Shown here: in pieces, positions 9,890 through 13,792 of the stretch
Numbering within the stretch: the stretch's first letter is position 1
Layout of the letters: each line of letters starts with the position of its first letter
IMG/VR virus record: IMGVR_UViG_3300035670_000675
Location: 1-36,953 of that record
DNA: 36,953 nt
Direction: 5' to 3' (one strand)
From: a virus
Translations under genes and position numbers: made by a program
Notes under the pieces: model-generated
Seen by the model: only the letters and a program-made list of their open reading frames with translations
Databases searched by the model: none
Told to the model about the DNA's origin: nothing

Positions 9890-10918
9890 ATGGCAGTATT
9901 AATTGATAGACAAACTGGACAGATCTTTGATCCTAGCATTCCTACTGCTATGGCATTATCAAGGCGCAAACCAGATCCAGCACAATTTAATACAGGCCGC
10001 AATGTAACTGGTGTATTAGGTGAATTATGGGATGCAAGTAAGCTTCAAGGTTTAGCTCCTGAGATGACTCCTTTGGGTAGCTTGCCTAATTTACCTATTG
10101 CTGCAAAGACTGCTACAAATGCAATTGGTACTGGCGCTAAAGCTGGTGCAAGAGAAATTGCTCGTCAAATTGAAACTGGCACAGGCATATTTGGTAAAGG
10201 CACTATTGATCCTCGTGAATACATTACTGCTTATCATGGAACTCCACATGAAATTGTTGGTGGTAAATTTGATTTATCAAAAATTGGAACTGGTGAAGGA
10301 AATCAAGTATATAGTCATGGATTATATTTTGCAGAACATCCATCTGTTGCTCAAACATATAAAATGCCAAGTAGAGGTGCTGAAGCAACAGCAGCAAGCA
10401 CATTAAAAATGTATAAAACTCCTGAAAAAGCTATTGAAATACTTGAAGATTCTTTGTCATCTACACTTACTGAACTTGGAAAAAAACATACACAAGAGGC
10501 AATTGATTTACTTAAATCAGGAAAAGCAACAACTGGTAATTTATATAAAGTAGATATTGAGGATAAATCATTAGGAAAAATGCTTAATTGGGATGATCCA
10601 ATATCAGAACAAAACAAATTTATAAAAAATGTTACAAAAAAAGAAATTAAAAAAATAGGTGGAAGTGCAAATACTGGTGGTGATTTTTACAAAGAAATGA
10701 TTTTTGATGAAAGAATGAAAGCATTGCGACAAGGATTAAGGCCAACACAAAAAGAACTAGAAGTCTTAGCAACAAATAGATTAAAAAATTTAGGAATATC
10801 TGGAATGAAATATTTAGATGCTGGATCAAGAGGTAATGTAGGATCAACGTCTAATTATGTTGTATATAACCCAGAAACTATTAAAATACTTGAAAAAAAT
10901 GGATTATTATTTCCATAA
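9890..10918 (+). CDS. ADP-ribosyltransferase-like protein (PARP/ART fold candidate)
   Basis: This 342-residue protein has an unstructured N-terminal 110 residues. The rest resembles the ART-like domain seen in phage polyvalent proteins: YHGTPHEI (H116), GTGEGNQVYSHGLYFAE (Y146) and a C-terminal MKYLDAGSR...SNYVVYNPETIKI (N322, E329). H116 and Y146 match the first two residues of the H-Y-x NAD-binding triad; the third is probably N322 or E329. Such enzymes would transfer ADP-ribose from NAD+ to a host macromolecule. The second half is clearly more AT-rich (many AAA/AAT codons) than the structural genes, a sign of separate acquisition. A terminator-like hairpin follows at 10970-10995. Confidence 0.6.
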   Translation: MAVLIDRQTGQIFDPSIPTAMALSRRKPDPAQFNTGRNVTGVLGELWDASKLQGLAPEMTPLGSLPNLPIAAKTATNAIGTGAKAGAREIARQIETGTGIFGKGTIDPREYITAYHGTPHEIVGGKFDLSKIGTGEGNQVYSHGLYFAEHPSVAQTYKMPSRGAEATAASTLKMYKTPEKAIEILEDSLSSTLTELGKKHTQEAIDLLKSGKATTGNLYKVDIEDKSLGKMLNWDDPISEQNKFIKNVTKKEIKKIGGSANTGGDFYKEMIFDERMKALRQGLRPTQKELEVLATNRLKNLGISGMKYLDAGSRGNVGSTSNYVVYNPETIKILEKNGLLFP

Positions 10919-10969
10919 TTAATGATTATCCTGATGCGTACTGTTTAAAATAGGTTCAAACTGTAAACT

Positions 10970-10995
10970 AATAGTTGAGATCTCAGCTATTTTTT
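10970..10995 (+). terminator. Near-perfect palindrome with T-run, probable terminator of the ADP-ribosyltransferase-like gene
   Basis: AATAGTTGAGA (10970-10980) faces TCTCAGCTATT (10981-10991), an 11+11 inverted repeat with a single G-U pair, merging into six T (10990-10995). It ends 52-77 bases after the ADP-ribosyltransferase-like stop and 17 bases before the pqqA-like ATG. It reads as an intrinsic terminator, but the perfect two-fold symmetry would also suit a protein operator. Confidence 0.6.
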
Positions 10996-11012
10996 AAACT
11001 AAGGAGAACATT

Positions 11013-11084
11013 ATGTGGACACGCCCAGAAGTTTGTGAAATGCGTTTCGGAATGGAAATCACCGCATACGTGATGAACCGTTAA
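11013..11084 (+). CDS. pqqA: PqqA-like PQQ precursor peptide (23 aa)
   Basis: The peptide begins MWTRPEV and contains RFGMEITAYVMNR at its end. PqqA peptides are about 22-24 residues, begin with a short (M)xWTKP-like segment and carry a Glu-x-x-x-Tyr core. The Glu and Tyr side chains are cross-linked by the radical SAM enzyme PqqE to start pyrroloquinoline quinone synthesis. Here E15 and Y19 fall exactly at the positions used in the 23-residue Klebsiella peptide. A strong Shine-Dalgarno AAGGAG (11001-11006) precedes the ATG by 6 bases and an intrinsic terminator follows 8 bases after the stop. No other pqq gene is visible, so the product would feed host PqqB-E. It is too short for most gene callers. 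Confidence 0.85.
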   Translation: MWTRPEVCEMRFGMEITAYVMNR

Positions 11085-11092
11085 GAAACAAG

Positions 11093-11115
11093 AGCCCCTT
11101 AATTGGGGCTTTTTT
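11093..11115 (+). terminator. Intrinsic terminator after pqqA
   Basis: AGCCCC (11093-11098), loop TTAATT, GGGGCT (11105-11110), then a T-run to 11115. It closes the rightward late/cargo transcription and sits at the meeting point with the leftward operon ending at 11118. Confidence 0.88.
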
Positions 11116-11117
11116 AT

Positions 11118-11579
11118 TTACGCTGCTTTTGCAAAATCTTTATGATTATCTAATATAAATTTAACATAAGCATTATGAGCATCTTTTGGATATTTAAAAT
11201 ATCCTAAATGAATAGATTTTTTGTTTAAATATCCAGTAGCTTTCCATTTATTTTTATAAGCAGATACTCCTTTATATCCACTTTTATTATTTTTTTTTAT
11301 TCCAACATTCAGATTATTTTGACTTTTTGTTGCTTCTCTTAAATTTTCAAATCTATTATCATCTTTTATTCCATTTATATGATCAATGCAATCTTTTGGC
11401 ATTTCACCTGTCATGTAAAGCCAAGCTAAACGATGTGCAAAATATCCTTTGCTATTAATTTTTAATTTAATATATCCATTTTCATAATAGCCAGCTACAT
11501 TTCCTAATGGAAGTCTTATAAAATAACCTTCTTTTGGAAAGTATATTAATTTTTCTTTTAACTGTTCTTGTGTGAGCAT
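11118..11579 (-). CDS. HNH homing endonuclease with AP2-type DNA-binding domain
   Basis: A 153-residue protein with an HNH core (FAHRLAWLYMTGEMP, then DHINGIKDDNRFENLREATKSQNN, residues about 47-92). An AP2-like C-terminal domain follows (GYKGVSAYKNKWKATGYLNKKSIHLGYF, about 101-130). This is the standard build of free-standing phage homing endonucleases, which cut an unoccupied allele and are copied in by repair. It is notably AT-rich. AAGGAT lies just before the ATG. It occupies the distal end of the leftward operon and looks like a recent insertion. Confidence 0.85.
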   Translation of the reverse strand: MLTQEQLKEKLIYFPKEGYFIRLPLGNVAGYYENGYIKLKINSKGYFAHRLAWLYMTGEMPKDCIDHINGIKDDNRFENLREATKSQNNLNVGIKKNNKSGYKGVSAYKNKWKATGYLNKKSIHLGYFKYPKDAHNAYVKFILDNHKDFAKAA

Positions 11580-12991: not shown

Positions 12992-13135
12992 TTATTGTAC
13001 TCTTGGCATAGATTTTGACAAGAGGTATTTGTGTCCTAGTTGTTTCTTTAACTCTTCAATCATATGGTTGCGTTTTGCAACCGCCTCAACTGGTGGCGGA
13101 GGAATATTTCTAAAGTCAATTAGTCGTTCAAACAT
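12992..13135 (-). CDS. Small hypothetical protein (47 aa)
   Basis: The protein starts MFERLIDF and has a Pro run (IPPPPVEAV) followed by a helical Lys-rich segment (NHMIEELKKQLGHKYLLSK). Its ATG overlaps the stop of the upstream gene (TAATG) and AAGGAGA lies 5 bases before it, so translation is very likely. No family recognised. Confidence 0.6.
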   Translation of the reverse strand: MFERLIDFRNIPPPPVEAVAKRNHMIEELKKQLGHKYLLSKSMPRVQ

Positions 13136-13398
13136 TACTTTCTCCTTAGTGGGTGAATAGTACGCTTTGTAATACTACACTTACGCTTATCTGCTTCTTC
13201 TATATAATTAGCTTTTTTAAGCTCATTACAGCGACCAGATACTGCATTGATAGGAATACCAGTCTTAGCACTAATCTCTTGCAATGAATAGTCTACATCA
13301 CGATCCATAGCATCAAGTATTGACTGTGCTTGCTGACCAATTAATCCGCTTGCTTGAATATCAACATACGTTTCTTTACTTGTATCTCTAACTGACAT
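13135..13398 (-). CDS. Small winged-helix DNA-binding protein
   Basis: An 87-residue protein. Residues about 22-80 form a winged-helix pattern (QSILDAMDRDVDYSLQEIS, TGIPINAVSGRCNELKKAN, then IEEADKRKCSITKRTI as the wing). It resembles small phage regulators that act on host or phage promoters. It overlaps its upstream neighbour by 11 bases and its downstream neighbour by one base. Confidence 0.6.
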   Translation of the reverse strand: MSVRDTSKETYVDIQASGLIGQQAQSILDAMDRDVDYSLQEISAKTGIPINAVSGRCNELKKANYIEEADKRKCSITKRTIHPLRRK

Positions 13399-13792
13399 TT
13401 TTTCTAGCCTCCATCATTGCATCTGCAATCTCATAACATGAAACTGCACATTCATTATCATTTTCACCAATCCACGAAAAATTTTGCATAGCTGCTGCAG
13501 CAAAGTAATCTCTTATTGATATATCCAAAATGGTAGATCTGTTTGCACATTGATCTTCATATGCTCCAAGCCAAGCTGCAATTTCTTTATGGCTTTTTCT
13601 TCCTAAGTTTGGAATCTTTCTAAGTTCCGACATAGTATAATCAATATGAAATAAATCTTGTACTTGCTGTTTTGTAAACAAAGCTTCAGATAAAAGGCAA
13701 TTCTTAGTTCTAATAGTTAATCCTTCAAATTCTTTATCTGCAATTCTTCTTTCATGATCTTCTAAATATGTATATCCAAATTTAGTTATCAT
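13388..13792 (-). CDS. RNA polymerase alpha-CTD-like DNA-binding protein
   Basis: A 134-residue protein whose residues 22-76 match the C-terminal domain of the bacterial RNA polymerase alpha subunit. The segment LTIRTKNCL corresponds to the region of E. coli R265-N268-C269-L270, and IPNLGRKSHKEI to N294-G296-K298-S299. In alpha these residues bind the UP element and contact activators. The second half (about 88-134: SIRDYFAAAAMQ, then CYEIADAMMEARK) is a small domain common in phage proteins. The phage may use it to bind UP-like DNA or to interfere with host transcription; that is inferred. Confidence 0.72.
   Translation of the reverse strand: MITKFGYTYLEDHERRIADKEFEGLTIRTKNCLLSEALFTKQQVQDLFHIDYTMSELRKIPNLGRKSHKEIAAWLGAYEDQCANRSTILDISIRDYFAAAAMQNFSWIGENDNECAVSCYEIADAMMEARKNVS

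Follow-up and report, generated by a model that had tools for sequence, protein, structure and literature searches.

Why would a phage carry a gene for PqqA, the precursor peptide of PQQ, and does its product feed PQQ synthesis in the host or compete with it? The question was raised by the window analysed here, a stretch of 36,953 nucleotides (positions 1 to 36,953 of IMG/VR virus record IMGVR_UViG_3300035670_000675), in which a preliminary description made from the sequence alone had reported a 23-codon PqqA-like ORF. Coastal and lake waters abound in OM43 and LD28 methylotrophs, whose energy supply depends centrally on the oxidation of methanol by PQQ enzymes.

Identity and surroundings of the phage pqqA gene

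The ORF was found exactly as reported, at 11013-11084 on the plus strand, and encodes the 23-aa peptide MWTRPEVCEMRFGMEITAYVMNR followed by a stop, with E15 and Y19, the residues joined by PqqE, in place. A search with the PqqA profile, proposed earlier as a check, gave a clear match to PF08042 with 40.7 bits against the Pfam cut-off of 21.1 (E = 8e-11 when six frames of the whole record were searched, and E = 2.1e-10 for the peptide against all of Pfam). The NCBIfam equivalog TIGR02107 was matched with 39 bits against a cut-off of 20 (E = 4.8e-10). A PqqA DNA pattern with 17 specified bases had one match in the window and none in 100 shuffles. The match is far above chance level and, judged by family membership, the ORF at 11013-11084 is a true PqqA gene.

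The signals around the ORF also agreed with the preliminary description. The strong Shine-Dalgarno sequence 6 nt 5' of the ATG is AAGGAG at 11001-11006 (+), and an AGGA or AGGAG motif of this kind precedes nearly all phage pqqA copies. The downstream terminator corresponds to a hairpin at 11090-11113 (+), which begins 5 nt 3' of the pqqA stop and has 9 pairs (5 GC) and a T-run (shuffles gave a mean of 0.1). This intrinsic terminator is predicted to be usable from both sides, and the HNH endonuclease gene at 11118-11579 (-) is convergent to it. An Rfam search of the window returned no RNA families.

The same 37-kb record encodes portal, large terminase, scaffold, endolysin and virion proteins and, by this gene content, is a genuine phage genome. 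Within it pqqA stands isolated between a gene at 9890-10918 (+), with weak similarity to ART-PolyVal, and the HNH gene. The portal is related to those of podoviruses of several hosts and of Pelagibacter phage HTVC106P, and 11 window proteins, mostly from virion genes, have relatives in the examined stretch of phage Venkman; no close phage emerged when window positions 1-25000 were compared with INPHARED at the nucleotide level. No integrase was found among the window proteins scanned. Neither PqqD nor PQQ enzymes were found in the phages tested, so that the PqqA peptide must act via host enzymes. Elsewhere in the window, a protein encoded at 13388-13792 (-) matches the C-terminal domain of RNA polymerase alpha (PF03118, 33 bits); its gene adjoins those of a winged-helix protein (13135-13398) and a Sak recombinase, and a part in redirecting host transcription is possible.

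Distribution of pqqA among phages

The preliminary description had also proposed looking for the gene in related phage contigs, and it recurred widely. PqqA scored above the Pfam cut-off in 15 of 50 related records collected via the portal protein, including eight of the nine near-full-length relatives of 34-36 kb. The PqqA DNA pattern was present in at least 120 IMG/VR contigs, which are related to one another, so that copy counts do not equal independent events. As a negative control, the same pattern with its spacing one base short had no match in all IMG/VR contigs. In a tblastn search of 50,697 INPHARED records, PqqA was found in nine cultured methylotroph phage genomes, namely P19250A, Venkman, MEP301, MEP401, MEP402 and four of Melnitz. 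Besides these, it matched only a single phage genome of metagenomic origin and a pair of records labelled Acinetobacter phage MD-2021a. Of the latter, CAKLQF020000010.1 is a bacterial chromosome in which pqqBCDE follow pqqA, and it was set aside together with the second record, CAKLQH020000055.1.

The isolates comprise a member of Zobellviridae (MEP402), Kyanoviridae (Melnitz), a siphovirus (P19250A) and an HTVC010P-like phage (MEP301), besides Venkman; on this classification, pqqA is carried by several unrelated phage types. The methylotroph host suggested earlier is strongly supported, as all matching INPHARED phages, except the metagenomic genome and the two Acinetobacter-named records, infect Methylophilales/Methylophilaceae. 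A viral contig of 356 kb (IMGVR_UViG_3300023174_000036) also bears PqqA.

That so short a gene would be hidden from annotation was correctly anticipated. Phage copies are almost always unannotated, since annotation pipelines miss a gene of only 23 codons. In the five isolate records examined, pqqA was either unannotated or opposite a mis-called ORF, and the metagenomic INPHARED genome likewise had no PqqA annotation. Antisense hypothetical ORFs drawn over pqqA at 76100-76195 of MZ577097.1 and at 2067-2195 of MW202481.1 are likely wrong calls. In several isolates phage pqqA is antiparallel to its neighbours and would therefore need a promoter of its own.

A proposed PQQ box shared by phages and hosts

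In hosts, a 17-bp palindrome, CTMATGAWWWTCATKAG, lies upstream of scattered pqqA copies and of pqqB. The window carries a matching sequence, TTAATGATTATCCTGAT, at 10919-10935 (+), hereafter the PQQ box. When both strands of the whole window were scanned with a PWM built solely from host pqqA upstream regions, 10919-10935 was the best site with 17.3 bits, and the runner-up reached 9.9. The 17-bp motif scored at least 12 bits in 97 of 126 phage pqqA upstream regions and in none of the shuffles, mostly 75-95 nt 5' of the ATG. A phage-trained PWM reached at least 12 bits in 86 of 168 host pqqA upstream regions, as compared to 0.3 in shuffles, and the host-trained PWM at least 10 bits in 64 of the 126 phage regions, as compared to 1.0. 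With the host-trained PWM the Melnitz box scored 21.6 bits and was the top site of its stretch; about a third of phage copies had a weak box (35/119 below 7 bits). Three relatives without pqqA had no box like that of the window. The box was also absent from phage genes of a second PqqA type with phenylalanine at position 20 (n=7), perhaps because their phages infect other PQQ-making hosts.

The complete 1.3-Mb genome of OM43 LSUCC0665 contains two exact box sites, both before pqqA, and the palindrome with one mismatch before pqqB. Methylophilus methylotrophus has an exact box 169 nt 5' of pqqB and near-exact boxes before its solo pqqA copies, and pqqB of another Methylophilaceae genome (1.2 Mb) is likewise preceded by a near-exact box. 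Since the box stands before both pqqA and pqqB in hosts, it resembles an operator and predicts a PQQ regulon in Methylophilaceae. No description of such a box turned up in the papers searched, and its sharing between host and phage appears new. A match in Methylopumilus (C1:22313) lies inside a bioF-like ORF and was taken as chance.

Promoter and leader region

The stretch that runs from the box up to the ATG, including a predicted promoter and leader region at 10936-11012 (+), was recognised by spacing and by conservation in relatives. Over these 94 bp (10919-11012), two relatives, L202 and L203, are 96-98% identical to the window, whereas their pqqA coding sequences are only 65-67% identical and the flanks do not align; the conserved block in this comparison starts at the box. 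The higher conservation of the leader may reflect either stronger selection on the regulatory part or replacement of the coding sequence. In the largest phage class (32 genes), a TATAAT-like -10 element starts 38 nt after the start of the box, and from this spacing we infer that the box would be centred near -42, the site of an activator overlapping -35. The window itself has no distinct -10. A near-perfect 20-bp palindrome, ATAGTTGAGATCTCAGCTAT, at 10971-10990 (+), with a T-run to 10995, lies between box and start codon; it is identical in L202 and L203, is found only in this small group, and is possibly a weak terminator/attenuator or an operator. The RNA fold of the leader was no better than that of shuffles (z -0.35). 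A leader peptide, MIILMRTV, starting within the box was dropped because its ATG would precede the likely transcription start.

Constraint on the phage peptide

To keep the search non-circular, phage peptides were scanned with residues 1-13 of PqqA as the only query. This gave 119 complete phage peptides, 53 of them distinct, and one extra match which runs off a contig end. All 119 were 23 aa long and none was interrupted. E15, T17 and Y19, none of which had been used in the search, were invariant in all 53 distinct peptides; conservation of E15 and Y19 in related phages, which the preliminary description had singled out as a check, was thus borne out. Equally, no frameshifted or interrupted pqqA was found among ~130 phage copies examined. 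The pN/pS ratio of pqqA was 0.23 in phages and 0.21 in hosts.

Host genomes were also compared, as suggested earlier, and of 128 phage copies 44 encode exactly the peptide of some host PqqA. Among the bacterial matches listed for the pattern MWTxPxxxxxRFGFE[VI]T, all were from methylotroph taxa or unnamed proteobacterial MAGs. The window PqqA is among the more divergent, with F14M, V16I and M18A. Its GMEITAY form was shared with a few phages (four contigs) and was found in none of 300 Burkholderiales genomes. The second type, with phenylalanine at position 20, was seen in nine phage contigs. A bias to C-ending codons in phage pqqA (38% vs 31%, p 0.016) was discarded as an argument, the effect being only slight.

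Probable role of phage pqqA during infection

Methylophilaceae carry between 1 and 12 copies of pqqA per genome (120/120 genomes), and multiple pqqA copies with a single pqqBCDE have been published for Lake Washington ecotypes of this family (PMC4109929). In work cited in PMC11317620, the rate of PQQ formation in Methylovorus MP688 was reported to be determined by the availability of PqqA. In host genomes of matching PqqA type pqqB and the next gene are present.

The observed family membership, breadth, E15/Y19 invariance, host-identical peptides and shared box led us to favour the following reading, to which we assign a probability of about 0.8, jointly with the assignment of the window to a tailed phage that infects a methylotroph of Methylophilaceae type: the phage adds a host-type pqqA unit, raises the supply of PqqA and so sustains PQQ-dependent methanol oxidation in infection. 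The stretch 10919-11113 would form a complete pqqA transcription unit that stands alone and is built on the host pattern, with PQQ box, promoter, leader, pqqA and terminator. A putative host PQQ regulator would bind the box and, with host RNA polymerase, would bring about expression of the gene during infection. Host PqqD/PqqE would then take the 23-aa peptide and cross-link E15 and Y19, and host enzymes would carry the cross-linked peptide on to PQQ, one peptide being spent per PQQ. The phage peptide would boost a precursor which is apparently limiting in hosts with 1-12 pqqA copies, and the benefit to the phage would be a PQQ supply to XoxF/MxaF methanol oxidation kept up while host genes are shut down.

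Among the alternatives, the one that survives best is that the unit is a passenger, repeatedly captured from multi-copy host genes or serving as a target for recombination or integration, and matters little for infection. Capture would be easy from hosts in which as many as 12 solo copies, with promoters of their own, are dispersed, and a leader much more conserved than the coding sequence looks as if parts had been exchanged. However, purifying selection on pqqA is equal in phages and hosts, the gene is present in most near-complete relatives as well as in the nine cultured methylophage genomes, genes without use are seldom retained in small phage genomes, and no integrase was detected in the window proteins scanned; we therefore regard this explanation as improbable.

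Whether the peptide would supply PQQ synthesis or compete with the host precursor had been left undecided in the preliminary description. Here supply is favoured and competition disfavoured, because the cross-linked residues are kept and phage peptides are often the same as host peptides. As a decoy, the phage peptide would compete for PqqD/PqqE and lower PQQ synthesis, for example slowing the host. An excess of short peptide could indeed occupy PqqD, and 8-9 of the 23 residues of the window peptide are not those of common host PqqA. But a decoy would be expected to lose or alter the reacting residues, and E15 and Y19 never vary; moreover, 44 phage copies are letter-identical to host peptides, and the hosts themselves amplify pqqA. 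Interference with PQQ synthesis is thus very unlikely. Least probable of all is that PqqA or PQQ has a role outside methanol oxidation, such as metal (lanthanide) acquisition or redox protection in infection. In its favour, orphan pqqA copies of Methylorubrum are responsive to the solubility of lanthanides, and a part in lanthanide uptake has been suggested (PMC11317620). These observations, however, come from outside the Methylophilaceae, and the box ties the phage gene to PQQ synthesis as a whole, pqqB included.

The supply of precursor to the host also has a wider form, which we hold with less confidence but still consider probable: several unrelated methylotroph phage types would have taken or kept a complete unit of the host PQQ regulon, the host regulator would switch the phage pqqA, which would lift the limiting step of PQQ synthesis, and the gene would be an accessory gene, near-universal yet overlooked, of OM43/LD28 phages. 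If so, a PQQ precursor gene under host control belongs to the regular equipment of these phages, and infection acts directly on C1 turnover. Phages with a PqqA of this type and the box could be recognised as infecting methylotrophs. With 1-12 host copies in addition to the phage copies, limitation of PQQ by PqqA is directly testable in existing isolate systems.

Comparison with known systems

Phage pqqA was not mentioned in the OM43 isolate papers searched, and neither stand-alone pqqA as a common trait of methylotroph phages nor the shared box was found in the open-licence literature searched. A 2026 study reported viral pqqA, pqqD and pqqE in reservoir sediment (PMC13188868). PMC11118758 names PqqA among RiPP families of prokaryote-phage interactions, but it deals with co-expression of host genes with defence genes and is no precedent for phage-encoded PqqA. 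The closest report is VP_266 from Lake Baikal (Coutinho et al. 2020, PMC7678222), in which PqqA was found with methanol dehydrogenase in a putative Methylophilaceae virus and a PQQ boost was proposed. Like the window, VP_266 thus represents a phage PqqA in a putative Methylophilaceae virus, but it is one T4-like metagenomic population, whereas here a stand-alone gene, accompanied by the host PQQ box, occurs in several unrelated phage types, isolates among them. What appears new beyond these earlier reports is how widely phage pqqA occurs, that it stands alone and that it shares its box with the hosts.

The window peptide resembles the PqqA family (PF08042/TIGR02107) in its length and in W2, P5, G13, E15, T17 and Y19, and differs in that its gene lies in a phage, with neither PqqD nor a PQQ enzyme encoded there. 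Solo pqqA genes of Methylophilaceae (PMC4109929) are similar to phage pqqA in standing alone, in the same box and in the same peptide type, many peptides being identical; they are, in contrast, chromosomal, and the host box is a fuller palindrome than most phage boxes. A further parallel is offered by cyanophages, in which pho boxes upstream of pstS place a phage metabolic gene under host-type control. By analogy, phage pqqA would also be a metabolic gene under the regulator of a host pathway, but its cargo is a RiPP-type precursor peptide and its regulator is putative.
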